Shown here one piece after another: positions 5,425-25,504 of a DNA stretch of 64,000 nucleotides. Location of the stretch: contig NZ_CP149788.1 of the NCBI RefSeq assembly GCF_037914945.1, positions 124,001 through 188,000 on the forward strand. The letters are read 5' to 3'. Source of the DNA: Haloterrigena sp. KLK7. Lineage in GTDB: Archaea > Halobacteriota > Halobacteria > Halobacteriales > Natrialbaceae. Each line of letters starts with the position of its first letter. Positions within the stretch are counted from its first letter, which is position 1. Made by a program: the position numbers and the translations under genes. Under the pieces are notes generated by a model. It made no database searches. It saw only the letters and a program-made list of their open reading frames with translations, and was not told the origin of the DNA.

Positions 5425-6750
5425 ATGGTCAGTGAAATCATGTTAGCCGCCAATATTGGCATCGCCGTAGCGATTGTGCTCTCGTTGATCATCCTGCTCG
5501 ATATCGATCCCGCCGTCTCGCTCATCATCGGATCGTTGTACATGGGTATCGCGTCCGGTCTGGGACTCACCGAGACGGTCTCGAGTATCGGCGAGGGATT
5601 CGGCAATCTCATGCAGGGGATCGGCATTCCGATCATCTTCGGCATCATGATCGGAATGCTGTTGGCTCGCTGTGGAGGGGCCACGCGGATCGCGACCACG
5701 CTCACGGACGCGGTGCCGTCGCGGTACGTTCCCTACGCACTCGGACTGTCCGGTGCCATCGTCGCGGTACCGGTGTTCTTCGACGTCGCGTTTCTGGTCC
5801 TGATCCCGATGGTCATCGCGCTCTGGCACGAGACGGAACACTCCTACCCCGTCGTCATCGGATCGCTCGTCATCGGTGCGGCCGGAGCACACACGTTCGT
5901 TCCGCCGACGCCGAACCCTCTCGCTGCGCCGGACCTGCTCGGGTTCGGACTCGGCGAGATGATGATCGCCGGACTGCTGGTCGGCTTCCCCGCGGTCGCG
6001 CTGGCGATCGCCGTCTACGTCCGCGTCGTCGATCGGCTGTGGGACGACGCGGCCGACGTCGACGACATTCCGTTCGAAGAGGACGATGACGGGCGGACCG
6101 ATCGTCCCTCGTTCGTCGCGTCGGTGCTGCCGATCGCGACGCCGATCCTCTTGATCCTCCTCCAGACCACGACGGAGGCCGTCACCGGCGAACCGAACGT
6201 CTACCTCGAGTTCCTCGGCAGCCGAATCATCGCGCTGCTTGCGGGGCTCCTGATCGCGATCGGCGTGTACGTTCGGACCGTCGGCCGCGAAGAACTCTCG
6301 GATACCTTCTCCGAGGCGACCCGACCGGCCGGCGTTGTCCTGGCGATCACCGGTGCCGGGGGCGCATTCGGGTTCGTCATTCAGGAGACCGAAGCGGCCG
6401 ACACCCTCGTGAACCTCATCGGCGTCAGCGGCGACGGCGTCGTCATCGTCCTCCTGGCGTTCGCGATCGGACTCATCATGCGTGTCGCGCAGGGCTCGGG
6501 AACGGTTGCCGGAATCACGGCGATGACGATCATGGGCGGCGTCGAGACGAGCGTCGCGGGCTCGGCTATCGCGTTAGCATCGCTCTCGGGCGGGATGAGT
6601 ATCGGCCACATCAACGACAGCGGCTTCTGGGTCGTGACCGAACTGACGGGCCTCGAGGTGACCGGCGGACTGAAGACCTACACGCTGAGCGAGGCGATCC
6701 TCTCGGCGTTCGGTCTCCTCGGCGCAATCACCATCGCCGTCGTCACGTAG
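5425..6750 (+). CDS. GntP-family permease (gluconate/sugar-acid symporter)
   Basis: This is a secondary transporter of the GntP family, which takes up gluconate and related sugar acids with H+. The 441 residues carry about a dozen hydrophobic segments. Two family motifs are clear: HTFVPPTPNPLAAPDLLG around residues 154-171, and SIGHINDSGFW around residue 392, matching the S/G-H-V/I-NDSGFW signature. An AT-rich box (tttttattattg, near 5390-5401) sits before the ATG. Its position between rhamnose-pathway genes suggests an aldonate such as rhamnonate or galactonate, but the sequence does not show the substrate. Confidence 0.88.
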   Translation: MVSEIMLAANIGIAVAIVLSLIILLDIDPAVSLIIGSLYMGIASGLGLTETVSSIGEGFGNLMQGIGIPIIFGIMIGMLLARCGGATRIATTLTDAVPSRYVPYALGLSGAIVAVPVFFDVAFLVLIPMVIALWHETEHSYPVVIGSLVIGAAGAHTFVPPTPNPLAAPDLLGFGLGEMMIAGLLVGFPAVALAIAVYVRVVDRLWDDAADVDDIPFEEDDDGRTDRPSFVASVLPIATPILLILLQTTTEAVTGEPNVYLEFLGSRIIALLAGLLIAIGVYVRTVGREELSDTFSEATRPAGVVLAITGAGGAFGFVIQETEAADTLVNLIGVSGDGVVIVLLAFAIGLIMRVAQGSGTVAGITAMTIMGGVETSVAGSAIALASLSGGMSIGHINDSGFWVVTELTGLEVTGGLKTYTLSEAILSAFGLLGAITIAVVT

Positions 6751-6841
6751 CGCTCGTCGCGTTCGACCGATTACCGACTCCGAACTCGGACGGGGAGACG
6801 ACCGATCACGAATCTGCTTCGTGCCGAAAACGGGGCCGGCG

Positions 6842-7834
6842 TTACTCGGTGAGCAGTTCGATCGGATGCCGCGGCCGGCGCTCCAGCAGCGAATCGATCT
6901 GCTCGAGACAGGAGGGACCGCTGGCGACGACCGGCCGCTCGAGGACCCCCTCGTCCCGCAGTTGCTCGCGCAGGCGGTCGCCGACGTCCATGCTCAGTTC
7001 GTAGTAGTCGCCCTTGTAGCCGAAGCTGCCGGCCATCCCGCAACACTCGACGTCGGAGGTGACCACGTCGTAGTCGCACTCCTAGAGGACGGCGACCATG
7101 TGTGTCTCGAGGCCGAGCATGCGCTGCTGACAGTGGCTGTGGTAGGCGATCTCGCCGCCGTCGGCGGAAAGCGCCGACGCGTCGGCGCCGGTCTCGAGGA
7201 GGCCGTAAACGTACTCGAGCACCTCGTAATTGTTCTCCGCGAGGGCGGTGAACGTCGCCTCGTCGAGGAGCTTCTCGTACTCCCGCTGGAACATCGCGTG
7301 GTCACTGGGCTCGACGACGTCGACGCCCAATGCCTCGAGGACCCCGACGGCGGCCTTCCCGCGCTCGACCCGAACGTGGTTCGGATAGAGGGCGGAATAG
7401 AGAACGGGCCCGTCGTCGGGGGTTCTCGCCGTTCTCGATCGTCGACTCCCGGTCGTCGAACCAGTCGACGAGCGTCTCGCGCTCGAAGGTCGGCAGTTCG
7501 CGACGGGGATCGATATCGAGGAGCCGCGCCATGAGCCACCGCAAGAGGTCGGCGTCGGCAACCCAGTTCGAGAGCGGGGCCGTAGTGCTGCCGAGCTTCT
7601 CGCGGGCGAAGCAGGTCACTCCTCGGCCGTCTCGAGGGCTTCTCCGGATCGAACCGCTCGTTGAACAGGTCAGCGATGCTCTCGCGAGACTTGTGGATGG
7701 CCAGGGTGACGATGTGCGAGGGGGCTTCGTCGGCCACCTAGAGCACCCGCTCGGCCGAGGTCGGTCTCGATAACGTCGGCGCCGTCCCGTTCCAGCGCGT
7801 CGTTGACCTCAAGCGACGACTCTCTGGCAGTCAT
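6842..7834 (-). pseudogene. Decayed LutB-LutA-like iron-sulfur protein gene with two internal deletions
   Basis: Read on the minus strand, this stretch is a broken relative of the intact lut fusion at 21679-23904. It starts at an ATG equivalent to residue 111 of that protein (MTARESSL against MTTEEIDL). It continues through VADEAPSH, then jumps from the FARE motif (about residue 187) to KLGSxTAPxSNW (about 439), which removes both 4Fe-4S clusters. A second deletion joins EALGV (about 528) to EPSD (about 576). Several frameshifts and stops, including a TAG near 7083-7085, separate the pieces 7302-7619, 7082-7561 and 6842-7066. The last piece still holds SDVECCGMAGSFGYK. No functional product is expected. 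Confidence 0.85.
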
Positions 7835-8193: not shown

Positions 8194-9225
8194 ATGAAGG
8201 CGATCGTACAGACGGGAGCCGAAGAAGTCGAAGTACAGGAACGCGAGAAACCAACTCCCGGTCCGGACGAGGTACTCGTCGCGGTTCACTCGGCGGGTCT
8301 CTGCGGCAGCGACGCGCACGCGTATAAATACGACGGGGGATACGAGTGGATACCGATCCCGCGTATCATGGGCCACGAGTACTCGGGTCGGGTCGCCGAC
8401 GTCGGTGAAAACGTCGATCAGTTCGACGTCGGAGAGAAGGTCATCGAGGAACCGATCCACGACTGTGGGACCTGTTTCCAGTGCAAGAACGGTCAGGGGA
8501 ACGTCTGTCAGAACTTCTCTATCACCGGGATGCACAAGGACGGAGCCTACACGGAGTACGTCACCGTCGAAACCCAACACCTCCACGCCGTCCCCGACGC
8601 CGTTCCGCTCAATCACGCGGCGATTACGGAACCGACGAGCATCGCCACCCGCGCCGTCCTCGATCAGTCGGCGACGACCCCGGGGGACAACGTCCTTGTC
8701 GAGGGGCCGGGCCCCATCGGCGTCCTCGTCGCCGCTGTCGCCGACTCGCTGGGCGCTAACGTTCTCGTCTCCGGCCTCGAGCAGGACGCGAAGTACCGTC
8801 TCCCGCTGCTCGAGAACCTCGGTATCGAGACGATCAACGCCCAGTCAGCGGACCTCGAAGAGTGTGCCGAGGAGTACGCCGACGGGATCGGATTCGACGT
8901 CGTCTTCGACGCAACGGGCCACCACACCGGCCTCGGGACCGCCCTCGACCACGTCCGAAAGGGCGGCCAGGTCGTCGTCGTCGGGATCCCCAACGCCGCC
9001 AGCGAGGTCACGTTCACGGCGGCCGTCCGCGGCGAGCTCGAGGTCAACACCTCGTACGGCTCGACGTGGACGAACTTCGAACAGGCGCTCCGACTGATGG
9101 AACGCGGCGAGATCGCCGTCGACGAGATCGTCGATACGTCCTACAGTGCAGACGAGCCGGCGGCCGCCTTCGAGGCGTTCCTCGAGTCCGAGACCTGCAA
9201 ACCTGTGTTCCAGTTCTCGGACTGA
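8194..9225 (+). CDS. Zinc-dependent medium-chain dehydrogenase, sugar/sugar-acid type (copy 1)
   Basis: This NAD(P)-dependent alcohol dehydrogenase of the MDR superfamily resembles L-threonine/sorbitol dehydrogenases. The catalytic zinc region is C37 in LCGSD and H61-E62 in GHEYSG. The structural zinc ligands C91, C94, C97 and C105 are all present. The Rossmann motif GPGPIG lies near residue 170. It is a clear paralogue of the gene at 16908-17942 with the same length. In the oxidative L-rhamnose pathway it could be the L-rhamnose dehydrogenase or the 2-keto-3-deoxy-L-rhamnonate dehydrogenase, and sequence alone does not decide. It is intact although neighbouring pathway copies (4472, 6842, 9342) are degraded. 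Confidence 0.88.
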   Translation: MKAIVQTGAEEVEVQEREKPTPGPDEVLVAVHSAGLCGSDAHAYKYDGGYEWIPIPRIMGHEYSGRVADVGENVDQFDVGEKVIEEPIHDCGTCFQCKNGQGNVCQNFSITGMHKDGAYTEYVTVETQHLHAVPDAVPLNHAAITEPTSIATRAVLDQSATTPGDNVLVEGPGPIGVLVAAVADSLGANVLVSGLEQDAKYRLPLLENLGIETINAQSADLEECAEEYADGIGFDVVFDATGHHTGLGTALDHVRKGGQVVVVGIPNAASEVTFTAAVRGELEVNTSYGSTWTNFEQALRLMERGEIAVDEIVDTSYSADEPAAAFEAFLESETCKPVFQFSD

Positions 9226-11628: not shown

Positions 11629-12453
11629 ATGCAACTCGCACTGTCGACGCTTAGCTGCCCCGACTGGGACCTCGAGCGAATACTGTCCGTCGGTCGGGAC
11701 GCCGGCTACGACGGCGTGGACTTCCGAGGGTACCGGGACGAGATCGACGTCACGCGCCATCCCCTGTTCACCGACCGAGCCGACGAAACGCGGTCGAGAC
11801 TCGACGACGCCGGGCTGAGTATCAGCGCCCTCAGCTCGAGTATCACTCTCTGTGAACCCGGCGACCGGTCGGACCGCGTGGCGGAGGCGCGCAGACTGCT
11901 CGAGGTCGCCGACGCGTTCGACGTCGACCGCATCCGCGTGTTCGGCGGTGGCGACCTCGACGCCCACTCGAGAGCCGAACTCGCCCGTTCCGGGGGCGAA
12001 ACCATGCGGGAGATCCTCTCGATCGACGGCGCGGAGAACGTCCGGTGGGTTCTCGAGACCCACGACGCCTGGACCGCCTCGGCCGACTGCCGGCGACTCC
12101 TCGACGAGCTTCCCGCGGACGACGTCGGCGTCCTGTGGGACGCCGCGCACACCGTCCGCCTCGCCGACGAATCCCCGCGCGAGACCCTCGACGCACTCGG
12201 CGATCGGATCGAGTACGTGCACCTGAAAGACGCCGTCTACGACCCGGACCACCACGACGCGACCGCCGACGGCTACGTGTACGCGGTCCCCGGCGAGGGC
12301 GAGCTGCCGATGGCCGACGTCGTCGCGGCGCTCCGCGAGCGAGGCTACGATGGCTGGCTCGTCTTCGAACACGAGAAGCGATGGCACCCCTCGATCACCG
12401 ACCCCGAAGTCGCCCTGCCGGCGTTCGTCGAGTGGTTCCGCGACCAGCGGTGA
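11629..12453 (+). CDS. Sugar phosphate isomerase/epimerase family TIM-barrel protein
   Basis: This 274-residue protein belongs to the xylose-isomerase-like TIM-barrel family (IolE/hydroxypyruvate isomerase/epimerase type). Typical elements are the N-terminal LALSTLSCPDWDLERIL and GYDGVDFRG, the metal-site residues in VLETHDAW and VGVLWDAAH, YVHLKDA, and the C-terminal GYDGWLVFEHEKRW. The ATG at 11629 is chosen over 11569 because the family begins directly with the first strand (MQLALST). It is followed after 46 bases by a D-2-hydroxyacid dehydrogenase, so the two probably form an operon. It likely isomerises or epimerises a sugar or keto acid from polysaccharide breakdown, but the specific substrate is not visible. 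Confidence 0.8.
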   Translation: MQLALSTLSCPDWDLERILSVGRDAGYDGVDFRGYRDEIDVTRHPLFTDRADETRSRLDDAGLSISALSSSITLCEPGDRSDRVAEARRLLEVADAFDVDRIRVFGGGDLDAHSRAELARSGGETMREILSIDGAENVRWVLETHDAWTASADCRRLLDELPADDVGVLWDAAHTVRLADESPRETLDALGDRIEYVHLKDAVYDPDHHDATADGYVYAVPGEGELPMADVVAALRERGYDGWLVFEHEKRWHPSITDPEVALPAFVEWFRDQR

Positions 12454-12499
12454 GCGGACGGATCCCTGCGTTTATAGTATCGGAGGAGTTACGAGAGAT

Positions 12500-13489
12500 A
12501 TGGAAATTTTCGTCACGTTACCGGACGGGGAACTCCGGGACGACTTCTTTCCGAACGAGGTTCGCCACCGACTCGAGTCACTGGGCACGGTCGCCTGGAA
12601 CCCGTCGACCGACGATCTCTCCGAGGACGGCCTCCGTGACCGCATCGACGGCGTCGACGTACTGGTCACGGGGTGGGGCAGTCCGCGGGTCACCGCCGAC
12701 GTCCTCGAGGCGGCCGACGATCTACAACTGATCGCCCACACCGGCGGGAGCGTCGGGACGCTCGTCTCCGAAGCGGTCTACGACGCGGAGATCCGCGTCG
12801 TGAGCGCCAACGACGTGATGGCCGACTACACGGCGGAACACACGCTCGGCTCGATCCTCGCGAAACTGCGCGCCGTTCCGGAACTCGACGCGTCGATGAA
12901 AGCGGGCGGGTTCAGTGCCGACGACGTCGACATTCGGACCCTCCACGGGAAGGACGTCGGACTCGTCGGGCTGGGAACCATCGGCCGGAAACTGCTCGAC
13001 CACCTGGCTTCGTTCGACGTGTCCGCCAGTATCTACGATCCCTACGTGGACGCGGCGGAGATCGCGGAGTATCCGTTCGCGACGCTGACGGATCTGGAGA
13101 CGGCGCTGGACTCGGCGGTCGTCTCCGTCCACGCTGCGCGGACCGAAGAGACGATCGGCATGCTGGACGCGGATCGCCTGGCACGGATCCCCGACGGGGC
13201 GCTGTTCGTCAACACTGCACGCGCCGAAATCGTCGAGGAAGCGGCGCTCATGGAGGAACTGCGGTCGGGTCGGCTCTCCGGCGTCTTCGACGTCTACCAT
13301 CGGGAACCGCTTCCCGCCGATCACGACCTCCGAGAACTCGATAACGTCTTGCTCACCCCTCACGTCGGCGGGTCCCAGATCCGTGGACCGCTAACGGAGA
13401 CCGTCATCGAGGACATCGAGCGGTTTCAGCGAGACCAACCGCTCGAACACGAAATCTCGAGGCGACAATGGCGGACGATGACTCGATGA
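12500..13489 (+). CDS. D-2-hydroxyacid dehydrogenase family protein
   Basis: This NAD(P)-dependent 2-hydroxyacid dehydrogenase is of the phosphoglycerate dehydrogenase/glyoxylate reductase type. The nucleotide-binding motif GLGTIGRKLLDHL and the catalytic Arg (NTARAEIVEE), Glu (YHREPLP) and His (TPHVGGSQ) are all present. The 329 residues start at ATG 12500 (MEIFVTLPDG); the longer frame from 12350 overlaps the preceding gene and has no family similarity. It is probably co-transcribed with the TIM-barrel gene just upstream. A role in reducing or oxidising a keto acid from uronate or aldonate degradation is plausible, but the substrate cannot be read from sequence. Confidence 0.83.
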   Translation: MEIFVTLPDGELRDDFFPNEVRHRLESLGTVAWNPSTDDLSEDGLRDRIDGVDVLVTGWGSPRVTADVLEAADDLQLIAHTGGSVGTLVSEAVYDAEIRVVSANDVMADYTAEHTLGSILAKLRAVPELDASMKAGGFSADDVDIRTLHGKDVGLVGLGTIGRKLLDHLASFDVSASIYDPYVDAAEIAEYPFATLTDLETALDSAVVSVHAARTEETIGMLDADRLARIPDGALFVNTARAEIVEEAALMEELRSGRLSGVFDVYHREPLPADHDLRELDNVLLTPHVGGSQIRGPLTETVIEDIERFQRDQPLEHEISRRQWRTMTR

Positions 13490-13916: not shown

Positions 13917-14222
13917 TCAGATCATTCGATACACTTCGTCCATCCACTGATCGGTGTCGTCGTCGACGAGGATGCCGTCCATTTCCTCGGCCCAGCGAGC
14001 CTGCTCGTCGCTCGTCTCCATCACGTCGCGAATCGCGTCCGGATCGTCGAGTTCCATGAACCCGAAGACGTGGCCGTCCGATTCGAAGACGCTGTAGGTC
14101 TCGAGGCCGGCATCGGACTCGAGATACGCCTCCTCGAGCCACGTGGGAACGTCCTCGTGGGCCTCGCGATACGCCTCGCGCTGTCCGTCGGCGATTTCCA
14201 GATGGAACGCAATGCGTGCCAT
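13917..14222 (-). CDS. rhaM: L-rhamnose mutarotase
   Basis: This small protein (101 residues, against 104 for E. coli RhaM) interconverts the anomers of L-rhamnose so that the downstream enzyme gets the form it uses. The ferredoxin-like fold pattern is recognisable: RIAFHLEI, YREAHEDVPTWLEE with the conserved His near the helix, YSVFESDGHVFGFMEL, and the tail pattern RWAEEMDGIL. It lies downstream of the rhamnonate dehydratase and LLM genes on the same strand, 201 bases after the latter. A mutarotase is expected beside a rhamnose dehydrogenase in the oxidative pathway, and its presence strongly supports L-rhamnose as the substrate of this cluster. Confidence 0.88.
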   Translation of the reverse strand: MARIAFHLEIADGQREAYREAHEDVPTWLEEAYLESDAGLETYSVFESDGHVFGFMELDDPDAIRDVMETSDEQARWAEEMDGILVDDDTDQWMDEVYRMI

Positions 14223-14423: not shown

Positions 14424-15455
14424 CTACCGGAACTGCGGCATGACTTCGTCAGCGAATAGTTCCATGCCGCCGGTGTCGGGGAAGTCGACGAACCAGCACT
14501 GGAACTTCGTGACACCGGCGTCGATCCGCCGCTGGATCCCTTCGGCGCACTCCTCGGGCGTGCCCATGACGAAGTAGTCGCGGGCGTCGTCCTCGGTCTC
14601 GATGTCGGCCTGATCGACGTACTCCTCCTCGAACTGGATCGGCAACATCAGGTCCAGCAGTTCGTCGAGTGTCTCCTCGTCGCGCGTACAGATGACGTGG
14701 CCGTCCCAGGAGTACTCGATCTCGTCGGGATCGCGACCGACCGTCTCGCAGTGGTCCTCGATGACGCCGATCTTGTGCTCGAGCGTCTCCGGCGTCCCCT
14801 TGAACACGTCCGTGTTCCAGACGTCAGCGTGTTTCGCGACGAGTTTCAGCGTCACGTCCTCGCCCTGGCCGCCGACGAGAATCGGCGGGTGTGGATCCTG
14901 TACCGGTCCGGGCTCGCAGTAGGCGCCGTCGATCTCGTAGTGATCGCCCGCGAAGGAGGCACCGTCGCCGGAATCAGCGGTCCACATCTCCTTCATCAGG
15001 CGGATGCTCTCGTCCAAGCGCATCAGCCGCTCGAAGCCATCGCGGTACTCCCAGCCGTAGGCCTCGTACTCGGGTTCGTGCCAGCCCGCCCCGAGCCCGA
15101 GCTCGAGGCGGCCGCCGGAGATGACGTCGAGCGTCGCGGCCATCTTCGCGACGAGCGCGGGGTTGCGGTAGTCGTTACAGAGGACGAGCGAGCCGAGGTT
15201 GATGTCGTCGGTGAGCCCCGCCAGCGCGGACAGCAGCGTCCAGCACTCGTACTCGGCGTTGTCGCGACCCAGCATGAGGTGGTCCGGCGCCCACGCGGCG
15301 TCGAAGTCGAGTTCCTCGGCTTTCAGGACGCTCTCCTTCGTGGTCTCCCAGTCGAGTCGCTCGTAACACGGCGTGTCGCGGTGGGTCGGATCCGTTCCCG
15401 ACTTCGGTGCGCCCGCGAACACCGGCACGTTGTACTCGAAGGTGACGTCGGTCAT
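14424..15455 (-). CDS. LLM-class (luciferase-like) oxidoreductase, probably F420-dependent
   Basis: This is a 343-residue TIM-barrel oxidoreductase of the luciferase-like monooxygenase superfamily; archaeal members usually use F420. Family features include WAPDHLMLG near residue 55, LGSLVLCNDYRNPALVAKMAATLDVISGGRLELGLG split over about residues 90-125, GWHEPEYEAYG, and GGQGEDVTLKLVAKHADVWN. It starts 3 bases after the stop of the rhamnonate dehydratase gene, so the two are surely co-transcribed, and rhamnose mutarotase follows. The F420-dependent glucose-6-phosphate dehydrogenases belong to this same superfamily, so a sugar-oxidising role (L-rhamnose dehydrogenase) is an open possibility. It is not part of the classical pathway. 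Confidence 0.85.
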   Translation of the reverse strand: MTDVTFEYNVPVFAGAPKSGTDPTHRDTPCYERLDWETTKESVLKAEELDFDAAWAPDHLMLGRDNAEYECWTLLSALAGLTDDINLGSLVLCNDYRNPALVAKMAATLDVISGGRLELGLGAGWHEPEYEAYGWEYRDGFERLMRLDESIRLMKEMWTADSGDGASFAGDHYEIDGAYCEPGPVQDPHPPILVGGQGEDVTLKLVAKHADVWNTDVFKGTPETLEHKIGVIEDHCETVGRDPDEIEYSWDGHVICTRDEETLDELLDLMLPIQFEEEYVDQADIETEDDARDYFVMGTPEECAEGIQRRIDAGVTKFQCWFVDFPDTGGMELFADEVMPQFR

Positions 15456-15458
15456 CGG

Positions 15459-16664
15459 TTACTCCACGCTGTAGTGCTCGAGGGCCTCAGGGTTGGTCGC
15501 CGAGCTCAGGCCGACGGTCTCGGGAAGCGGGATGGTGCCGCCCTCGGCCTGGGGCGGGTTCGCGTAGATGGCGTCGGCGTAGGTCGACTCCTGCTCGCCC
15601 TGGCGCTCCTTGTACCACTCCGGAATGGGGAAGTACTCCGCCATCGGCGCGTTGGTCGAGGCGGCGATGAAGTGCAGCGTCGGGTTCGTTCCGGAGTGGG
15701 GGATCACCGGCACGTCGCGGGCGCTGGCCATGGCGTCGATCCGCTGGAGTTCGGTCAGCCCGCCACAGCGGTGGATGTCGGGCTGGAGGATGTCCACGGC
15801 CTCGCGCTCGAGGAGTTCCTTGTGGCCCCAGCGGGTGAACTCGTGTTCCCCGCCCGAGATGGGGACGTTCGAGGCCTCGCGGACCTCAGCGTAGCCGTCG
15901 ATGTCGTCCGGGATGACCGGCTCCTCGACCCACTCCATGTCGTAGCGCTCGAGGCGCTTGAGCATCTTCTTGGCGTAGCGGACGTCCCAGCCCATGTAGG
16001 CGTCGCCGGCGATCGCGATCTCGTCGCCGACGGCGTCGCGGACCGTCTCGACGATCTTCTCGTTCTCCTTCATCCCCTTGCGGCCCGCTTCCGGCCCGTA
16101 GCGGAACCGCAGTTTCATCGCGTCGAAGCCCTGTTCCGCGTAGTTCTGGGCCTCCCGCTCGAGTTTCTCGTGGTCGACCGGGTGGAGGTTGCTGGCGTAG
16201 CAGGGGATCTCGTCCGTGACCGGCCCGCCCAGCAGTTCGTACACCGGTTTCTCCGCTTCCTTGCCGGCGATGTCCCAGAGCGCGAGGTCGACCGCGCTGA
16301 TGGCCTCGATGGCCGCCCCCTTCCGCCCGAAGGGAATCGTTGCCCGGTACATCATGTCCCAGAGTCGTTCGCGCTCGTGGGGGTCCTCGCCGACGACGAG
16401 CTTCGAGAGCGTCTCGTCGACGATCGTCTCGATCGACCCCGTCGCCCAGTTGCCGACGCCGACGCCGGTGATGCCCGCGTCCGTCTCGACTTCCACGACG
16501 ACGTCGCCCACTGGACCCATCCATTTCCGGCGGGCCTGCGGATTGTCACCGTCGGCGTTGTTGTACTCGTCGAACTTGCTCATCACGGTGACGAGCGGGA
16601 ATTCGACGAACTCGCCCCAGGAATCGGTACTGACCTTCGTGACGTTGATGTTCGTTATCTCCAT
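15459..16664 (-). CDS. rhmD: L-rhamnonate dehydratase (enolase superfamily)
   Basis: This enzyme dehydrates L-rhamnonate to 2-keto-3-deoxy-L-rhamnonate with Mg2+. The 401-residue length equals that of enterobacterial RhmD. RhmD-like stretches include MSKFDEY near the start, DLALWDIAGK, PVYELLGGPVTDEIPCYA, the metal ligands in AGDAYMGWD, WVEEP and SGGEHEFTRWG, and the late VPHSG. The ATG at 16664 (MEITNINVTKV) is chosen; the frame stays open to 17330 but that part overlaps the divergent dehydrogenase gene. It is first in an operon with the LLM oxidoreductase. The divergent gene at 16908 and the 243-base spacer suggest joint control. Another aldonate substrate is possible, but the neighbouring mutarotase favours rhamnonate. 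Confidence 0.85.
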   Translation of the reverse strand: MEITNINVTKVSTDSWGEFVEFPLVTVMSKFDEYNNADGDNPQARRKWMGPVGDVVVEVETDAGITGVGVGNWATGSIETIVDETLSKLVVGEDPHERERLWDMMYRATIPFGRKGAAIEAISAVDLALWDIAGKEAEKPVYELLGGPVTDEIPCYASNLHPVDHEKLEREAQNYAEQGFDAMKLRFRYGPEAGRKGMKENEKIVETVRDAVGDEIAIAGDAYMGWDVRYAKKMLKRLERYDMEWVEEPVIPDDIDGYAEVREASNVPISGGEHEFTRWGHKELLEREAVDILQPDIHRCGGLTELQRIDAMASARDVPVIPHSGTNPTLHFIAASTNAPMAEYFPIPEWYKERQGEQESTYADAIYANPPQAEGGTIPLPETVGLSSATNPEALEHYSVE

Positions 16665-16907: not shown

Positions 16908-17942
16908 ATGAAGGCCATAGTACATACCGGTCCCAGAGCCATCGAGATCCGCGAACGCGAGAAGGCAGTCCCCGACGACGACGAAGTCCTCGTTCGCGTT
17001 CACTCGGCGGGTCTGTGCGGCAGCGACGCGCACGCGTACAAGTACGAAGACGGCTACGAGTGGATCCCGATCCCGCGGACCATGGGCCACGAGTACTCCG
17101 GCGAGGTCGTCGACGTCGGCGACGACGTCACCGACTTCGCGGTCGGCGACCACGTCGTCGAGGAGCCCATCCACGACTGCGGCTCGTGTTTCCAGTGCAA
17201 GAACGGGCAGCCGAACGTCTGCCAGAACTTCGAGATCACGGGCATGCACAACGACGGCGCGTACACCGAGTACACGACGGTCCGTCCGCGCGATCTGCAC
17301 CAGATCCCGAAGGACGTGCCGCTCGGACACGCGAGCATCACCGAACCGCTCAGCATCGCGACGCGGGCGGTATTCGATCAGTCCGCGGTGACGCCGGGCG
17401 ACACCGTTCTCGTCGAAGGCCCCGGTCCGATCGGTGTGCTCGTCGCAGCCGTCGCGGACTCGATGGGTGCTAACGTCCTCGTCTCCGGACTCGGCAAGGA
17501 CACGGCGTATCGACTGCCGCTAGTCGAAGAGCTCGGGATCGAAACGGTCGATGTCGAGACGACCGACCTCTCCGATATCGTCGACGAGCGAACCGACGGC
17601 GTCGGCTTCGACGCGGTGTTCGATACGACCGGCCACTCGAGCGGCGTCGAGATGGCTATCGACCACGTCCGGAAGGGCGGACAGGTCGTCGTCGTTGGGC
17701 TCCCCGGCTCCCCCAGCGAGGTGTTCATGACGCCGGTCGTCCGCGGCGAGGTCGACGTGAACACGTCCTACGGCTCGACCTGGCGGAACTTCGAACAGGC
17801 CATTCGACTCCTCTCGGCCGGCGCGATCGACGCCGACGCGATCATCGATCGCTCCTTCAGCGTCGACGACCCGACCGCCGCGTTCGAGGCGTTCCTCGAG
17901 TCGGAGACCTGCAAGCCGGTCTTCTCGTTTGCAGAGAGCTGA
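16908..17942 (+). CDS. Zinc-dependent medium-chain dehydrogenase, sugar/sugar-acid type (copy 2)
   Basis: This is a paralogue of the 8194-9225 protein, with long identical stretches (for example AGLCGSDAHAYKYE/D and the block around GHEYSG). All catalytic and structural zinc ligands (C37, H61-E62; C91, C94, C97, C105) and the GPGPIG nucleotide-binding motif are kept in its 344 residues. It stands divergently from rhamnonate dehydratase and upstream of the GH97, lactonase and hydrolase genes, so it is the copy belonging to the intact pathway. It is probably the NAD(P)-dependent 2-keto-3-deoxy-L-rhamnonate dehydrogenase of the diketo-hydrolase route. L-rhamnose dehydrogenase is the alternative. 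No short-chain dehydrogenase is visible in the window to take the other step. Confidence 0.87.
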   Translation: MKAIVHTGPRAIEIREREKAVPDDDEVLVRVHSAGLCGSDAHAYKYEDGYEWIPIPRTMGHEYSGEVVDVGDDVTDFAVGDHVVEEPIHDCGSCFQCKNGQPNVCQNFEITGMHNDGAYTEYTTVRPRDLHQIPKDVPLGHASITEPLSIATRAVFDQSAVTPGDTVLVEGPGPIGVLVAAVADSMGANVLVSGLGKDTAYRLPLVEELGIETVDVETTDLSDIVDERTDGVGFDAVFDTTGHSSGVEMAIDHVRKGGQVVVVGLPGSPSEVFMTPVVRGEVDVNTSYGSTWRNFEQAIRLLSAGAIDADAIIDRSFSVDDPTAAFEAFLESETCKPVFSFAES

Positions 17943-18085: not shown

Positions 18086-19801
18086 ATGGTTCAGATCACG
18101 GATCCCGACGGTACCATCTCGATCGACGTGGACCCGAACGGGACGTTGCGCGTCGACCGATCCGGAGAGACTGTTTTCGAACCGTCTCCCTACGGGCTTC
18201 CGACGCCGTACGGCTCGTTTCCCGAGGAATTCGAGCTCGACGACGTGCGAACCCGGACGATCGACGAATCGTACGAGCTCGTTCACGGGAAACGGTCGAG
18301 CCCGCGCCACCGAGCGGTCGAGAAGACGCTCTCGTTCGAGGGCGACGGTGGCTCGGTGGACTTTCAGGTCCGCGCCGCGGACGACGGCATCGCATACCGA
18401 TATCGGTTGCGAGGCGAACGGGACGAGTACCTCCACCCGGGCGACGAGTCCGGCTTTCGATTCCCCACGGGCGCCGTCGCGTGGCTCTCCGACTATCAGG
18501 CCAACCACGAGGGACACAGCCGGCAGGTCCCGGTAACCGCCGTCGACGGGGAGTACAATCTCCCCGGCCTCTTTCAGGTTGACGACACCTGGGCGCTCGT
18601 GTGCGAGGCCGGCGTCGACGGCGACTGGATGGCCGGCCGACTCGTCGGGGCGCGCGACGACGCGCCGGGCGTCGACATCGGATTTCCCGAGTCCCACCCG
18701 ACGTCACACGTGTGGACCGACGATCCCGCGACGACGCCGTGGCGTGTCGCGATTATCGGCGACCTCGCGACCGTGGTCGAGTCGACCCTCCCGACCGATC
18801 TCGTCGACGGACCGCGGATCGACGGCGACTGGGTCGAACCCGGTCGCGTCGCGTGGTCGTGGTGGTCGAGCGACTCGAGCGTCCGATCGCTCGAGGAGCA
18901 GCGGGCGTACGTCGACTACGCCGCGGAGCGAGGGTGGGAGTACGTGTTGGTCGACGCCGGCTGGGACGACGAGTGGCTCCCCGACCTCGTCGCGTACGCG
19001 AACGACGTCGGCGTCGACGTCGAACTCTGGTCCCATTTCATCGACCTGAACACCGAGTCCAAGCGCGAAGAGCGCCTCTCGAAGTGGGCCGAGTGGGGGG
19101 TCGCCGGCATCAAGGTCGACTTCATGGACAGCGACGACCAGGGGCGGATGCAGTTCTACGACGACCTCGCTCGCGCCGCCGCCGAACACGAACTACTCGT
19201 GAACTTCCACGGGTCGGCCGTCCCGACGGGGCTCCGTCGACGCTGGCCCCACGTCATGACGTACGAGGGCGTTCGCGGCGCCGAGTACTACAAGTGGACG
19301 ACGAACACGCCCGAGCACAACGCGACGCTCCCGTACACCCGCAACGTCGTCGGTCCGATGGACTACACGCCCGTGACGTTCTCCGCCGAGCGACGCTCGA
19401 CGTCGGCGGGTCACGAACTCGCGCTGTCGGTCGTCTACGAGTCCGGACTCCAGCACTACGCCGACGGGATCGAGACCTACGAGTCGTATCCGATCGCAGA
19501 GCGCGTCCTCGAGTCCGTTCCGGCGGCCTGGGACGAGACGAGGTTCCTCCGCGGACGACCCGGGTCGGAGGCCACGTTCGCGCGGCGGACGGACGACGAC
19601 TGGTTCGTCGGCTCGATCACCGCCGGTCCGGCGGGATCGATCGAGGTGCCGCTCTCGTTTCTCGACGGGGAGACGACGGCCGTCGTCGCGACCGACGCCG
19701 ACGAGGGCACCGGTCTCGAGGAGTGCGAACGCGCGGTGTCGCCGGACGAATCGCTCCGCGTGTCAGTCGCGGAGAACGGCGGCTTCGTCGTTCGGCTCTG
19801 A
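18086..19801 (+). CDS. GH97 family glycoside hydrolase
   Basis: This GH97 enzyme (alpha-glucosidase or alpha-galactosidase family) has 571 residues. The N-terminal beta-super-sandwich is followed by the TIM barrel with WSWWSSD, VDAGWD and GIKVDFMDSDDQ (Asp about residue 345, candidate nucleophile), then MTYEGVRGAEYYKW (Glu about residue 394, candidate acid/base) and YTRNVVGPMDYTP. The retaining GH97 members use an Asp nucleophile at the equivalent place, which suggests alpha-galactosidase-type chemistry. The start is ATG 18086, because the frame further upstream has no family similarity. No signal peptide is seen, so it likely acts on imported oligosaccharides. It lies between the dehydrogenase and lactonase genes on the same strand. 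Confidence 0.85.
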   Translation: MVQITDPDGTISIDVDPNGTLRVDRSGETVFEPSPYGLPTPYGSFPEEFELDDVRTRTIDESYELVHGKRSSPRHRAVEKTLSFEGDGGSVDFQVRAADDGIAYRYRLRGERDEYLHPGDESGFRFPTGAVAWLSDYQANHEGHSRQVPVTAVDGEYNLPGLFQVDDTWALVCEAGVDGDWMAGRLVGARDDAPGVDIGFPESHPTSHVWTDDPATTPWRVAIIGDLATVVESTLPTDLVDGPRIDGDWVEPGRVAWSWWSSDSSVRSLEEQRAYVDYAAERGWEYVLVDAGWDDEWLPDLVAYANDVGVDVELWSHFIDLNTESKREERLSKWAEWGVAGIKVDFMDSDDQGRMQFYDDLARAAAEHELLVNFHGSAVPTGLRRRWPHVMTYEGVRGAEYYKWTTNTPEHNATLPYTRNVVGPMDYTPVTFSAERRSTSAGHELALSVVYESGLQHYADGIETYESYPIAERVLESVPAAWDETRFLRGRPGSEATFARRTDDDWFVGSITAGPAGSIEVPLSFLDGETTAVVATDADEGTGLEECERAVSPDESLRVSVAENGGFVVRL

Positions 19802-19894: not shown

Positions 19895-20764
19895 ATGGTG
19901 CTGGACACGCATACCCACGCCTGGACGCGACCGAACCGGGACCACCCCTGGGTGAACGGCCCGCTCGTCGAGACCGTCGACGAGTTCGACGTCGACGCGG
20001 TCTACACCGCGGAGAAACTCCTCGCGGATATGGACGCCGTCGGGGTCGACGAGGCGGTCGTCGTCGGCTACCCGATCTGCGAGTGGACCGACAACCGGTA
20101 CACGATCGACTGCGTCGAGGATCACGACGGGCTCTCAGGGGTCGTCATGCTCGACCAGTTCGCCGACGACGCGGCCGACCAGCTGCGCGAGTCGATGGCC
20201 GTCGACGGCGTGCTCGGCTTCCGCCTCGGTGCGATCTGCCCGTACGACCGCATGTGGGAGACGTTCGATCCCAGCGTGGAGTGGCTTCGCGAGGCGATCG
20301 ACGAGAGCGACTTCTGGACGGCCGCCCGCGAGACCGACGCGCTGGTCCAGATCCTGGCCCACGTCGACCAGCTCGAGCAGGTGATCGATCTCGTCGAGGC
20401 CTATCCCGAGCTCTCCTACGCGCTCGATCACTTCTGTCACGCGGGCCCCGACGTCCCGCCCGAAGCGGCGCTCGGCGCGCTCGAGCCCCTCGCCGGCGAC
20501 GAGTACGACGTGGCCGTGAAGATCTCCGAGGTCGTCCACCGCTCCGAGGAGGGGTTCCCCTACCGCGATATGCACGACCACGTCCGCTGGTTGCTCGAGA
20601 CCTTCGGGCGCGAGCGGGTCGTCTGGGGCTCGGACTTTCCGAACGTCAGCGACGAGGCGAGCTACGAGGAGAGTCTGCGGTGGCTCGAGCACGTCGACTG
20701 TCTCTCGAAGACCGACCGTGAGTGGCTCACCGGTCGGGCAATGGAAGAGCTGTGTGGGATGTGA
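19895..20764 (+). CDS. COG3618-type amidohydrolase, probable L-rhamnono-lactonase
   Basis: This 289-residue metal-dependent TIM-barrel hydrolase carries the HTHAW metal motif at residues 5-9. Other family marks are GVDEAVVVGYPICEW, the central DHFCHAG, and RVVWGSDFPN near the end. COG3618 proteins hydrolyse sugar lactones such as L-rhamnono-1,4-lactone and L-fucono-lactone. In this cluster it fits the step converting L-rhamnono-lactone to L-rhamnonate. It ends 3 bases before the stop of the convergent FAH-family hydrolase. A dead paralogue of the same length lies at 4472-5341. Confidence 0.83.
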   Translation: MVLDTHTHAWTRPNRDHPWVNGPLVETVDEFDVDAVYTAEKLLADMDAVGVDEAVVVGYPICEWTDNRYTIDCVEDHDGLSGVVMLDQFADDAADQLRESMAVDGVLGFRLGAICPYDRMWETFDPSVEWLREAIDESDFWTAARETDALVQILAHVDQLEQVIDLVEAYPELSYALDHFCHAGPDVPPEAALGALEPLAGDEYDVAVKISEVVHRSEEGFPYRDMHDHVRWLLETFGRERVVWGSDFPNVSDEASYEESLRWLEHVDCLSKTDREWLTGRAMEELCGM

Positions 20765-20767
20765 GCG

Positions 20768-21604
20768 CTACTCTTCGACGACGTGGTTCTCGAGCGTTCC
20801 GATCCCTTCGACCTCGGCTTCGACCGTGTCACCGGGCGAGAGCAGTTCCGGCGGATCGCGGAAGATGCCGACGCCGCCCGGGGTGCCGGTCGAGATGACG
20901 GTGCCGGGCTGCAGCGTCATTCGGTGGCTGAGGAACTCGATGGTGTCGCCGACGTCGAAGATGAACTCGGCCGTCGAGGACTCCTGTTTCACCTCGCCGT
21001 TGACCCGGAGCTCGACGTCGACGTCGTTGGCGTCGATCGCGTCGGGCGCGGTCAGCGCCGGGCCCATCGGGGCGAACGTGTCGTAACTCTTGCCGCGGAA
21101 GAACTGGCCGTCCTCGAACTGGGCGTCGCGCGCGCTGACGTCGTTGACGACCGTGTAGCCCGCGACGTACTCCTCAGCCTCGTCGGCCGAGACGTCGCAG
21201 GCGGTCCGCCCGATGACGACGCCGAGCTCGACCTCGTAGTCGACCTGCTCGACGTCCTCGGGGTGGACGATCGGCGCGTCGGGCCCGGTGACGCTCGAGG
21301 GCGACTTCGCGAACAGCATCGGGGTGTCGGGGATCTCCTCATCCTGCTCCTCGGCGTGGTCGTAGTAGTTCAGGCCGACGCAGACGATCTGCTCGACGGA
21401 CGGAATCGGTACCAGATACGTCTCCGGCTCGTCGATCTCCGGGAGTTCGCCGGTCTCGACGGCGCGACGGACGCGGCGGCGGTAGCCGGGCGTCGCGAGG
21501 TCCTCGAGCGACGGTTCTCCGTAGCGGTCCAGCGCGTACGTCCGGTCGTCGACGGTGACGCCCCAGCGGACGCCGCCGTCGGTCGCGAATCGAACGAATT
21601 GCAT
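20768..21604 (-). CDS. FAH-family hydrolase, probable 2,4-diketo-3-deoxy-L-rhamnonate hydrolase
   Basis: This 278-residue fumarylacetoacetate-hydrolase-fold enzyme shows CVGLNYYDHAEE, the metal-site EVELGVVIGR, and GYTVVNDVSARDAQ, then RGKSYDTFAPMGP and ISTGTPGGVG. In the oxidative rhamnose pathway an FAH enzyme (LRA6 in bacteria, DKDRH in Haloferax volcanii) splits the diketo acid into pyruvate and L-lactate. ATG 21604 is used; the frame stays open far upstream through the lut gene, but that is a shadow. It is last in the minus-strand operon lutC, lutBA, hydrolase, with 74 bases to lutBA. The enzyme releasing L-lactate is thus made together with the enzymes that oxidise it. Confidence 0.85.
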   Translation of the reverse strand: MQFVRFATDGGVRWGVTVDDRTYALDRYGEPSLEDLATPGYRRRVRRAVETGELPEIDEPETYLVPIPSVEQIVCVGLNYYDHAEEQDEEIPDTPMLFAKSPSSVTGPDAPIVHPEDVEQVDYEVELGVVIGRTACDVSADEAEEYVAGYTVVNDVSARDAQFEDGQFFRGKSYDTFAPMGPALTAPDAIDANDVDVELRVNGEVKQESSTAEFIFDVGDTIEFLSHRMTLQPGTVISTGTPGGVGIFRDPPELLSPGDTVEAEVEGIGTLENHVVEE

Positions 21605-21678: not shown

Positions 21679-23904
21679 TCACCCGGAGCTGTCCGGCGCG
21701 ACGAGCGAGATCGGATGCCGCGGCCGGCGGGCCAACAGTCCGTCCAGTTGCTCGAGACACGACGTCCCGCTCGCCACGACCGTTCGATCGGCGGCGTCGG
21801 ACGCCTCGAACTGCTCCTCGAGTCTCTCGCCGACGTCCACGCTCAGCTCGTAGTACTCGCTCTTGTACCCGAAGCTCCCCGCCATCCCGCAACACTCGAC
21901 GTCGGAGGTGAGGACGTCGTACCCCAGTCGCTCGAGAACGTTCGTCGTATAGGTCTCCAGTTCGAGCGTCCGCTGCTGGCAGTGGGAGTGGTAGGCGATA
22001 TCGGAGCCGACGCTGCCCGCATCGTCGGCGCGTCCCAGCGGCGCGGGATCGGCCCCGTTCTCGAGTAGGCCGTAGACGTACTCGAAGACCTCGTAGCTGC
22101 GCTCGGCGAGGGCCTCGTAGCGCTCCGCGTCGAGGAGGCGCTCGTACTCTCCGCGGAACATCGCGAGGTCGCTGGGCTCGATGGCGACCACGTCGTAGCC
22201 TGCCTCGAGGTAGGGCTCGAGGTCGGCGGCGACGTCGCGAGCGTGGTCTTCCGCGGTGGCGATCATCCCCTGGGAGAGCGGCGCGCGGCCCGAGGAGGCG
22301 ACGTCGGGGACTTCGACCGCGACGCCGAGCGCCTCGAGCGTGCGGACGGCGGCCTTCCCGCGGTCGGTCCGGATGTAGTTCGTGTAGAGGTCGGGATAGA
22401 CGACCGCATGGTAGTCGGCGTCGACGGGCCGGGGAACGTCTCTCGTTCGGAACCACTCGACGAACGTCTCGCGCTCGAACTCGGGCAGATCGCGGCGGCG
22501 GTCGACACCGATGAGTCGTTCCATGAGCGCTCTCGAGGGGAGCGTGTCCGCGATCCAGTTCGACGCGGGCGCGGTCGCGGATCCGAGCTTCGCCAGCGTC
22601 GAGAAGTTGCCGAAGAACCGCTTTTGCAGGTCGAGCCCCGCGGGCTCCTCGTCCGGCGTGAGCCCTTCGACCAGGAAGTCGAACTGGCCGTCCTCGGCGC
22701 CGCGGTTGCGTCGATCGCGGACAACGGTGTTGATCCACGGGATATCGATCTTCACCGGACACTGGTTGACGCAGCGCGAACAGCCGGTACAGAGGTCGTT
22801 GAACTCGTCGGCCGACTCCTGGCCGTGGACGCCGGCCTCCCAGCCGGTCGCGATCCCGCCCGAGTAGGTCTCGCCGCCGAAGACGTGGCCGCCGACGGAC
22901 TGGAAGTTCGCACACGAGTTGGCACAGGCCGAACACCGGATACAGTACAGCGTCTCCCGGAGCTGGTCGTCCTCGCGCATGTCCATCCGGCCGTTGTCGA
23001 GCAGGACGAGGTGGAACTCCCGATCGTTCGGCTCGTCGGCGATCGGTTCGTCGCCGTCGAAGTCGACCGGCGGCGTCGAGACCGGCGGTGAGAACAGCGA
23101 GACGTAGGAAGTGATGTCCTGGCCCGTCCCCGAGCGCGCGATCAGTTCGACGAACGGCTGGAGGTCCTCGAACGTCGGGACGATCTTCTCGACGCCCGCC
23201 ACCGCGACGTGCGTGTCGGGTACGGCGACGGTCTTGCGAGCGTTGCCCTCGCTCGTGACGAGCGCCATCGTCCCCGTGTCCGCGGTCACGAAGTTCGCGC
23301 CGGTGACGCCGATGTCCGCGTCCTCGATCCGTTCGCCGAGGTACTCCCGCGCGAACGCGGTCAGCTCCTCGGCCGTCTCGAGTTCCGCCTCGGGCTCGAA
23401 GTACTCGTTGAACAGGGCGGCGATCTCCTCGCGCGACTGATGGATCGCCGGCGCGACGAGGTGGCTGGGCGCCTCGTCGGCCACCTGCAGGACGAACTCG
23501 CCGAGGTCGGTCTCCCAGACCTCGCAGTCCTCGTCTTCGAGGTGCTCGTTGAGATCGATCTCCTCGGTCGTCATCGATTTCGACTTGACGACGGTCTCGG
23601 CATCCCGTTCGCGGGCGAGTTCGCGGACGTACCGGTTCGCGTCGGCGGCGTCCTCGGCGACGTAGACGGTTCCGCCGTTCGCCTCGACCGCCTCGCGCAC
23701 CTGCTCGATCAGCTCGGGAAGGCGTTCGATCGCGTCCTCCTTGATCGCCCGCGCTCGGTCCTTGTACGCGTCGTAGTCCTCGAGTCGGGCGACGGACTCG
23801 TATCGGCCCTCGTTGAATCCGCGGGCGTTGCGCTCGACGCTGTCGCCCTCCGTTTCCATGACGTGCCGGATCCGCTCGGCCTTCCGGGATCGCTCGCTCG
23901 ACAT
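21679..23904 (-). CDS. LutB-LutA fusion: LUD domain, two 4Fe-4S clusters and CCG domains
   Basis: This 741-residue protein is a candidate subunit of the LutABC-type L-lactate dehydrogenase complex. Residues 1-300 form the LUD (LutB/YkgF) domain with VADEAPSHLV and TGANFVTADTG. The ferredoxin clusters are CIRCSACANSC (321-331) and CTGCSRCVNQC (372-382), followed by a linker. A C-terminal LutA/GlpC-like part has HCQQR (641-645) and ECCGMAGSFG (670-679), the CCG heterodisulfide-type motif. In most bacteria LutA and LutB are separate, so this is a fusion. It overlaps the end of lutC by one base (TAATG). In context it should oxidise L-lactate coming from rhamnose, passing electrons to the respiratory chain. 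A damaged paralogue lies at 6842-7834. Confidence 0.87.
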   Translation of the reverse strand: MSSERSRKAERIRHVMETEGDSVERNARGFNEGRYESVARLEDYDAYKDRARAIKEDAIERLPELIEQVREAVEANGGTVYVAEDAADANRYVRELARERDAETVVKSKSMTTEEIDLNEHLEDEDCEVWETDLGEFVLQVADEAPSHLVAPAIHQSREEIAALFNEYFEPEAELETAEELTAFAREYLGERIEDADIGVTGANFVTADTGTMALVTSEGNARKTVAVPDTHVAVAGVEKIVPTFEDLQPFVELIARSGTGQDITSYVSLFSPPVSTPPVDFDGDEPIADEPNDREFHLVLLDNGRMDMREDDQLRETLYCIRCSACANSCANFQSVGGHVFGGETYSGGIATGWEAGVHGQESADEFNDLCTGCSRCVNQCPVKIDIPWINTVVRDRRNRGAEDGQFDFLVEGLTPDEEPAGLDLQKRFFGNFSTLAKLGSATAPASNWIADTLPSRALMERLIGVDRRRDLPEFERETFVEWFRTRDVPRPVDADYHAVVYPDLYTNYIRTDRGKAAVRTLEALGVAVEVPDVASSGRAPLSQGMIATAEDHARDVAADLEPYLEAGYDVVAIEPSDLAMFRGEYERLLDAERYEALAERSYEVFEYVYGLLENGADPAPLGRADDAGSVGSDIAYHSHCQQRTLELETYTTNVLERLGYDVLTSDVECCGMAGSFGYKSEYYELSVDVGERLEEQFEASDAADRTVVASGTSCLEQLDGLLARRPRHPISLVAPDSSG

Positions 23905-24416
23905 TATTCCTCCGCGTCCTCCACGACGACCGCGTGGGTCTCTCTCGGTCCGTGTACACCATAGACAAGTTCGCCCATGTCGGCGGTCGCGCTCGGGCCG
24001 GTCGCGAGGACGGCGTCGCCGTTGCCGTCACGGAACCGCTCGCCCAGGCGCTCGAAGACCGCGGCCATGTCGTCGACGAGGTCCCGCTCGCGGACGACGA
24101 TCACGTGTCGGTCGGGGAAGAGCCCGGCGAGCTCGGCGCCGTCCGGCGTCGACTCGAGGACGACCGTCCCGTAGTCGGCGACGCCGAGCGCGGCGGCCGT
24201 GACGCCACAGGCCGCCTCGCGGAGCTGGTCGGGCGTCGGCTCGAGGACGACATCTGTCCCCTCGAGCGTGACGTCCTCGAAGGGGAGCGGCGCACCGATC
24301 GCGGACTCGTCGATGACGTCGGCGAGCGTCTCCTGAAACGCTGCCGGCGAGGTTCGGGTGACGGCGGTCCGGACGCTTCCGAGGTTCGTTTCGAACGTCT
24401 CTAGCTGTGTCTCCAT
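23904..24416 (-). CDS. lutC: LutC-like LUD domain protein
   Basis: This 170-residue protein has a single LUD domain. It reads DVTLEGTDVVLEPTP, CGVTAAALGVADYGTVVLES, DRHVIVVRERDLV and ATGPSATADMGELVYGVHGP; the last block is the LutC signature region. ATG 24416 (METQLETF) is chosen over the longer frame to 24473. The stop overlaps the ATG of the LutB-LutA fusion by one base, which points to coupled translation. With the fusion it would complete LutABC. It is the first gene of the minus-strand operon, and its promoter lies in the 323-base spacer shared with the IclR gene. Confidence 0.83.
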   Translation of the reverse strand: METQLETFETNLGSVRTAVTRTSPAAFQETLADVIDESAIGAPLPFEDVTLEGTDVVLEPTPDQLREAACGVTAAALGVADYGTVVLESTPDGAELAGLFPDRHVIVVRERDLVDDMAAVFERLGERFRDGNGDAVLATGPSATADMGELVYGVHGPRETHAVVVEDAEE

Positions 24417-24739: not shown

Positions 24740-25504
24740 ATGTCGAGCAAACCACGCCAACCGGTCCAGGCCGCCGCGACGACGTTTCGGATCATCGAGA
24801 CGCTTCACGAGCTCAACGGAGCCGGCGTCTCCGAACTCGCGGACGAACTCGAGATGCCCAAGAGCACGGTCCACGACCACCTCCAGACGCTGACCGAAGC
24901 CGAGTATCTCGTCAAACGGGACGGACGGTACCACGTCGGTGCCCGGTTCCTCGAGTTAGGCGGGTTCGCTCGAAGCCAGATGAAACTGTACCAGATCGCC
25001 TCCCCGGAAATCGAGAAGTTGGCGGAGGAGACCGGAGAGCACGCGAACCTCATGATCGAAGAGCACGGCAAGGGGATCTTCCTCAACAAGGCGAAGGGCC
25101 GGGACGCCGTGAACCTCGATACGCACATCGGCAAGCGCGTTCACCTCCACACCACCGCCATGGGGAAGGCGATCCTCTCGAAACGGTCGGAAGCGGCCGT
25201 CGACGAAATTATCGACCGCCACGGCCTCCCCGGCGTGACCGAGAAGACGATCACGGACGCCGAGGAACTGAAGAGTGAACTGGCGGAAATACGCGAGCGG
25301 GGATACGCGATCGACGACGAGGAACGGGTCGCCGGAATGCGGTGTGTCGCGGCGCCGATCTGTGACAGCGACGAGAATCCCATCGGGGCGATCAGCGTCT
25401 CGGGACCGACGAACCGATTTAACGACGAGACGTTCACGACCGAGATCCCGAAGACCGTGCTGAGCACTGCGAACGTCATCGAAGTGAACATGACCTATTC
25501 CTGA
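24740..25504 (+). CDS. IclR-family transcriptional regulator
   Basis: This 254-residue regulator has an N-terminal winged helix-turn-helix (about residues 10-75: TTFRIIETLHEL, GVSELADELEMPKSTVHDHLQTL split around the turn, GRYHVG). A C-terminal ligand-binding IclR domain follows, with HTTAMGKAILS, GYAIDDEERVAGMRCVAAPI and GAISVSGP. In Haloferax volcanii an IclR-type protein (RhcR) activates the rhamnose cluster, and similar regulators control xylose genes. Its position at the end of the intact rhamnose module suggests the same function, with a rhamnose-pathway intermediate as ligand. The palindrome at 24689-24705 in its promoter is the natural candidate binding site. Confidence 0.88.
   Translation: MSSKPRQPVQAAATTFRIIETLHELNGAGVSELADELEMPKSTVHDHLQTLTEAEYLVKRDGRYHVGARFLELGGFARSQMKLYQIASPEIEKLAEETGEHANLMIEEHGKGIFLNKAKGRDAVNLDTHIGKRVHLHTTAMGKAILSKRSEAAVDEIIDRHGLPGVTEKTITDAEELKSELAEIRERGYAIDDEERVAGMRCVAAPICDSDENPIGAISVSGPTNRFNDETFTTEIPKTVLSTANVIEVNMTYS

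Follow-up and report, generated by a model that had tools for sequence, protein, structure and literature searches.

A luciferase-like oxidoreductase gene coupled to L-rhamnonate dehydratase belongs to the core rhamnose gene set of haloarchaea and may encode an F420-dependent L-rhamnose dehydrogenase

The stretch of DNA analysed here (hereafter referred to as the window; 64,000 nucleotides) carries a rhamnose/rhamnogalacturonan locus. It comes from a Natrialbaceae genome of 4.64 Mb that is 99.4% complete, in which the locus sits on a contig of 397 kb. The interval 14424–16664 holds two minus-strand genes, encoding a luciferase-like (LLM) superfamily oxidoreductase and an L-rhamnonate dehydratase, and a mutarotase gene lies just beyond it. 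The features of the locus are as follows.

1173–4307, plus strand: GH78 alpha-L-rhamnosidase
13917–14222, minus strand: L-rhamnose mutarotase (rhaM family, PF05336), 201 bp after the LLM gene
14424–15455, minus strand: LLM-superfamily oxidoreductase, 343 residues, near TIGR03560; proposed to be of the F420 type and possibly an L-rhamnose 1-dehydrogenase
15459–16664, minus strand: RhcD-type L-rhamnonate dehydratase of the enolase superfamily (MR_MLE), 401 residues
16665–16907: intergenic gap between the divergent rhcD–LLM pair and rhcE; judging by the layout, presumably a shared promoter region
16908–17942, plus strand: RhcE-type zinc (MDR) dehydrogenase, 2-keto-3-deoxy-L-rhamnonate dehydrogenase; the orthologue in Haloarcula halophila is named rhcE
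18086–19801, plus strand: GH97 glycoside hydrolase
19895–20764, plus strand: RhcC-type L-rhamnono-1,4-lactonase (amidohydrolase family); the orthologue in Natronococcus sp. CG52 is named rhcC
20768–21601, minus strand: RhcF-type 2,4-didehydro-3-deoxy-L-rhamnonate hydrolase (FAH family); 215 bits to NF053535 (cut-off 500), with orthologues named rhcF in RefSeq
21679–23904, minus strand: LUD/FeS L-lactate oxidation protein (LdhH/LutB-like), for the L-lactate product
23904–24416, minus strand: LutC-like LUD protein; the H. turkmenica orthologue is annotated as a LUD-domain protein
24740–25504, plus strand: IclR-family regulator in an RhcR-like position; the H. turkmenica orthologue is annotated as IclR
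34544–36577: rhamnogalacturonan lyase family 11

The open reading frame coordinates place the ATG of the LLM gene 3 bp after the stop codon of the dehydratase gene, as an earlier sequence-only reading of this DNA had stated, and that reading was also right to put a rhamnose mutarotase after the LLM gene: the gene at 13917–14222 passes the Pfam rhaM model (52.5 bits, cut-off 23.4), while falling short of the TIGR02625 equivalog model (24.3 bits, cut-off 99.6). The best NCBIfam match of the dehydratase is L-rhamnonate dehydratase NF011968 (255.8 bits, below the cut-off of 393), and the protein shares 74–75% identity with RefSeq-named RhcD proteins. The rhamnose context is independently backed by the GH78 rhamnosidase and the family 11 rhamnogalacturonan lyase.

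Five enzymes are required by the diketo-hydrolase pathway of rhamnose breakdown: a dehydrogenase for the sugar, then a lactonase and a dehydratase, followed by another dehydrogenase and finally a hydrolase. The genes flanking the rhcD–LLM pair match this pathway, with RhcE, RhcC and RhcF types, LUD proteins and an IclR regulator. The haloarchaeal rhc cluster and its pathway were described by Reinhardt et al. (2019, Mol Microbiol 111:1093), which we cite through PMC8305020 and PMC11519228; in these two papers it is the reference for lactate and pyruvate as the products and for RhcR and RhcJ. The window resembles the rhc cluster in having orthologues of RhcC, RhcD, RhcE and RhcF together with the regulator and the lactate-oxidation proteins, but differs in that the LLM protein bears no rhc name in the RefSeq records examined, although it is 88–91% identical to the Haloferax protein. 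RefSeq gives the names rhcC, rhcD, rhcE and rhcF to orthologues of the locus genes, and these names reach proteins about 80–82% or more identical to those of Haloferax; since LLM proteins at 88–91% are left unnamed, the curated set seems to hold no function for them. We found none in the curated names or in the accessible literature, Reinhardt et al. itself excepted, and the RefSeq names agree with the earlier view that the known pathway has no LLM enzyme.

A second, decaying rhamnose module lies within the window (4472–5326, 6771–7740 and 8194–9225). Its RhcC-like gene contains three in-frame stops and is 61% identical to the intact copy, its LdhH-like gene is broken, and its GntP permease (5425–6750) and its RhcE-like dehydrogenase, which shares 71% identity with the first RhcE, are intact. 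Natrialba asiatica has the same order, RhcC–GntP–LdhH–RhcE. Between this module and the mutarotase gene, at 11629–13489, lie an IolE-like TIM-barrel protein and a D-2-hydroxyacid dehydrogenase; the opposite strand encodes a heparinase II/III-like protein, and all three accompany the locus in Haloterrigena.

The earlier reading had suggested looking for co-occurrence of the LLM and dehydratase genes across haloarchaea, and we did so in 212 haloarchaeal genomes from 68 genera. With identity thresholds of at least 77% for LLM, 73% for RhcD and 58% for RhcC, the three orthologues occur in an identical set of 24 genomes, spread over four families, in which the LLM proteins are 77–92% identical to that of the window. 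Two identical sets of this size would arise by chance with a probability of about 10^-31 if genomes were independent, a figure that ignores kinship and conveys scale rather than serving as a test. RhcE is present in all 24 (and in 4 other genomes) and RhcF in 23 (and in 6 others). Within Haloferax, 8 of 15 genomes have both LLM and rhcD and the remaining 7 have neither, H. volcanii itself lying outside the comparison. In all 47 intact pairs, from many genera, the distance from the rhcD stop to the LLM start is −4 to +13 bp, mostly 2 or 3 bp, and in the group of genomes to which the window belongs the mutarotase gene adjoins the pair.

The LLM orthologue group, which includes WP_012944975.1 of H. 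turkmenica, is confined to haloarchaea above 48% identity and evolves under purifying selection, with dN/dS values of 0.10–0.19 against relatives. RhcD comprises two types with 75% mutual identity, and the partner LLM proteins split differently; Haloterrigena salina differs from H. turkmenica in RhcD type, and its rhcD lies beside a gene for an LLM protein 92% identical to that of the window. Retention of the LLM gene where the dehydratase type has been exchanged speaks against mere hitch-hiking. In a Salinarchaeum metagenome-assembled genome (MAG), the LLM gene and rhaM are divergently oriented; rhcD is absent from the 14-kb stretch, and nothing above 41% identity to it occurs in the 1.9-Mb MAG, which is small and probably incomplete; in Halocatena marina DFN5, extra copies are broken. 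The link between LLM and rhcD is far beyond chance, and these data argue strongly that the LLM gene is an obligate, core member of the haloarchaeal rhamnose gene set that carries no assigned function.

In the 24 LLM genomes, the lactonase, the dehydratase, the second dehydrogenase and the hydrolase are each represented by a universal or nearly universal enzyme. For the initial oxidation of L-rhamnose, a cluster-borne SDR (SDR-A; Haloferax, Haloarcula and Halorubrum) is found in 11 of the 24, always together with LLM, and is absent from the other 13. Its best NCBIfam matches are unspecific, and from its place in the cluster it is likely an NAD-type L-rhamnose dehydrogenase. A second protein, SDR-B, occurs in three of the 24 genomes at 80% identity or more and is nearer than SDR-A to the L-rhamnose 1-dehydrogenase Lra1 (NF053807), scoring 184 bits against a cut-off of 400. 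Lra1 catalyses the step proposed here for LLM; its fold is unrelated, and no such gene lies near LLM in the window genome. At the thresholds used (E-values of 1e-40 and 1e-60, with only the best first-look candidates scored), the window genome and two others (G026 and G186) have neither SDR-A nor SDR-B. The clusters of Haladaptatus halobius and Natronococcus sp. CG52 contain RhcC, RhcD, RhcE, RhcF and LLM and no further annotated sugar oxidoreductase. Some clusters have genes for an aldehyde dehydrogenase or a PGDH-like protein nearby; these were set aside, as they are not common to the clusters.

With the other steps filled and SDR-A present in 11 of the 24 genomes, the LLM protein is by elimination the best, and the sole universal, candidate for the first step, and a role as an L-rhamnose-oxidising aldose dehydrogenase is a serious prospect to which we give somewhat less than an even chance. 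The tightest coupling of the LLM gene, which is to rhcD and not to the lactonase gene, counts against this role, as does the fact that we know of no TIGR03560 protein that oxidises a free sugar; moreover, the step could be performed by a generic dehydrogenase encoded at some other place in the genome. The sequence-only reading had proposed an alternative, F420-dependent L-rhamnose dehydrogenase. Its substance is upheld in that LLM is a core rhamnose gene, has a cofactor-site sequence that looks to be of the F420 type and is in several clusters the only oxidoreductase left for the step; the word "alternative" has to be dropped, because LLM is present in every SDR-A genome and is therefore more than a stand-in for SDR-A. 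Nor is the adjoining zinc dehydrogenase a good candidate for the rhamnose oxidiser, as that reading had allowed: proteins related to it bear the name RhcE and are assigned as 2-keto-3-deoxy-L-rhamnonate dehydrogenase.

The LLM protein belongs to the PF00296 superfamily (178.1 bits, cut-off 27.9). Its best NCBIfam match is TIGR03560 (Rv1855c type), with which it has the W-H-E-x-E motif region in common but whose cut-off of 231.4 it misses by 3.5 bits (227.9); the miss is marginal, because an 80–81% identical orthologue from Halocatena marina carries that family name in RefSeq. To our knowledge, no substrate has been assigned to any member of TIGR03560, which NCBI labels as F420-dependent. The predicted structure (mean pLDDT 88.3, pTM 0.89) has a TIM-barrel fold, and fold comparison (VIA) gave near-tied Z-scores of about 33–34.5 for FMN monooxygenases, Mer, FGD and Adf, so that the fold decides nothing between F420 and FMN enzymes. 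In both sequence and fold, the closest solved structures are 3rao, a putative luciferase-like monooxygenase from Bacillus cereus, and the group C enzymes SfnG and MsuD.

In MsuD, the FMN phosphate is held by the side chains of H123, Y127 and S178 (PMC8234197), which correspond to Gly140, Leu144 and Gly198 in the LLM protein, so that the group C signature for FMN-phosphate binding is missing. Whereas 3rao, SfnG and MsuD have H-x-x-R-Y and GGxS motifs (in the solved structures, 3rao and 8vw6 both contain them), the LLM protein has G140-x-x-R143-L144 and G195-G196-Q197-G198, and all 49 orthologues have Gly198. FGD1, Adf and Mer likewise lack the FMN-phosphate residues. On these sequence grounds, the site looks to be of the F420 type rather than the FMN-monooxygenase type; the gene cofD, for F420, is present in the window genome, and we consider F420 the probable cofactor.

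The protein is nearer to TIGR03560 than to the known F420 dehydrogenases. The F420 dehydrogenases of the LLM fold form one clade comprising FGD, FSD and ADH, and free sugars are poor substrates of FSD (PMC6279831). The LLM protein shares with FGD1, FSD and Adf the TIM-barrel LLM fold, the Asp–His pair (Asp58–His59, matching FGD1 Asp39–His40, in 49/49 orthologues) and the lack of the FMN-phosphate serine, but is only 24–27% identical to them, has no phosphate pocket and scores far below the F420 dehydrogenase cut-offs (76 against 210.4 bits for TIGR03557; 64.7 against 420 bits for TIGR03554). FGD1 Glu109 binds and protonates F420 (PMC11448927); Adf has it too, and Mer and Rv0132c have a functional equivalent (PMC3859598). 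The position of Glu109 is occupied by Trp125 in all 49 orthologues, and that of FGD1 Trp44 by Met or Leu (residue 61); both replacements argue against an FGD-like mechanism. The previously asserted kinship with F420-dependent glucose-6-phosphate dehydrogenases thus holds at the level of superfamily and fold and fails at the level of family scores and of Glu109.

We tentatively propose that the LLM protein carries out an F420-dependent oxidation of L-rhamnose. As a luciferase-like hydride transferase that most likely binds coenzyme F420, it would oxidise C1 of L-rhamnose, with RhaM providing the right anomer, to yield L-rhamnono-1,4-lactone; RhcC would open the lactone, RhcD, encoded on the same message as LLM, would dehydrate rhamnonate, RhcE and RhcF would complete the final steps, and of the two products, pyruvate and L-lactate, the latter would be oxidised by the LUD proteins. 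The operon position, invariant co-occurrence, purifying selection and F420-type phosphate site are read from the sequences; F420 as the cofactor, L-rhamnose as the substrate and the direction of the reaction are what we infer. Other work has established the steps of the diketo-hydrolase pathway and the presence of F420 in haloarchaea. A more speculative corollary, which may well prove wrong, is an F420-dependent L-rhamnose dehydrogenase outside the FGD/FSD/Adf clade, with Trp in place of the F420-protonating Glu, and F420 serving aerobic halophiles as an electron carrier in catabolism.

One review calls the role of F420 in halophiles undetermined (PMC8498797), and another mentions a single reported F420-dependent reaction for them (PMC8305020). 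If the proposal is correct, F420 would gain a role in rhamnose-eating haloarchaea, the first step of rhamnose breakdown would be filled, or shown to be double, in many of them, and the large TIGR03560-like group would obtain its first substrate. The conserved gene and the clean growth phenotype of the pathway make the role of F420 approachable by a single deletion.

Other functions for the LLM protein have to be weighed against this proposal. SDR-A, another SDR or generic dehydrogenases may oxidise L-rhamnose, with LLM as an accessory enzyme beside RhcD, for example one that reduces (with F420H2) or oxidises a keto compound formed by the dehydratase as a side product, or one that oxidises an acid-level intermediate. 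This would suit its retention in all 11 SDR-A genomes, by which it is not redundant with SDR-A, the coupling to RhcD (−4 to +13 bp, 47/47), which is tighter than for any other step, the score of SDR-B against Lra1 (184 bits, cut-off 400) and the missing FGD glutamate. It fits less well with the 13 of 24 genomes that lack SDR-A, three of which also lack SDR-B, and with the incomplete Salinarchaeum MAG, in which LLM lies by rhaM and not rhcD; moreover, no known side reaction of the pathway requires such an enzyme. We regard an accessory role as possible but doubtful.

An FMNH2-dependent, O2-using monooxygenase acting on modified rhamnose or rhamnonate, such as methylated, sulfonated or acylated side chains of rhamnogalacturonan or ulvan, is improbable. 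Although FMN monooxygenases (3rao, SfnG, MsuD and SsuD) rank among the best matches in sequence and in fold, the fold comparison also lists a sulfoquinovose monooxygenase (7oh2) and RefSeq labels the protein "flavin-dependent", the side chains that hold the FMN phosphate in MsuD are missing, the annotated clusters contain no flavin reductase gene, and one would not expect every rhamnose degrader to retain a tailoring enzyme. Still less likely, in our estimation, is an F420-dependent 2-keto-3-deoxy-L-rhamnonate dehydrogenase that converts the secondary alcohol to the ketone, as Adf does, alongside or in place of RhcE: Adf is an F420-dependent secondary alcohol dehydrogenase of the same fold and the LLM gene directly follows that of the dehydratase, but RhcE, named in RefSeq for that very step, is present in 24 of 24 genomes, and the Adf glutamate is absent.

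Paralogues of the LLM protein (LLM2, 46–48% identity) are encoded beside mutarotase, lactonase and mannonate dehydratase genes in Haloarcula and Haladaptatus, and perhaps other aldoses are oxidised likewise through them. In at least one other genome, LLM2 lies beside BKACE-like and cyclase-like genes, identified by reading their sequences, and for this reason LLM2 adds little support. The LLM2 cluster (L090:19989–24530 and L093:8395–15101) comprises an SDR, an AKR, a rhamnose-mutarotase paralogue, a mannonate dehydratase and an SMP-30 lactonase; in Haladaptatus, GH92 and GH47 genes are nearby, which makes oxidation of D-mannose possible. A third LLM clade (84–98% identical internally, about 30% to the window LLM) is found about 10 kb or less from the rhcD–LLM pair at seven loci (L055, L056, L061, L064, L069, L092 and L108), where its genes mostly adjoin oligopeptide-type transporter genes. 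About 7 kb downstream of the LLM–mutarotase genes, pHTUR01 of H. turkmenica carries a cluster for mycofactocin biosynthesis (mftE, A, B2, C and F; L087:26293–31098).
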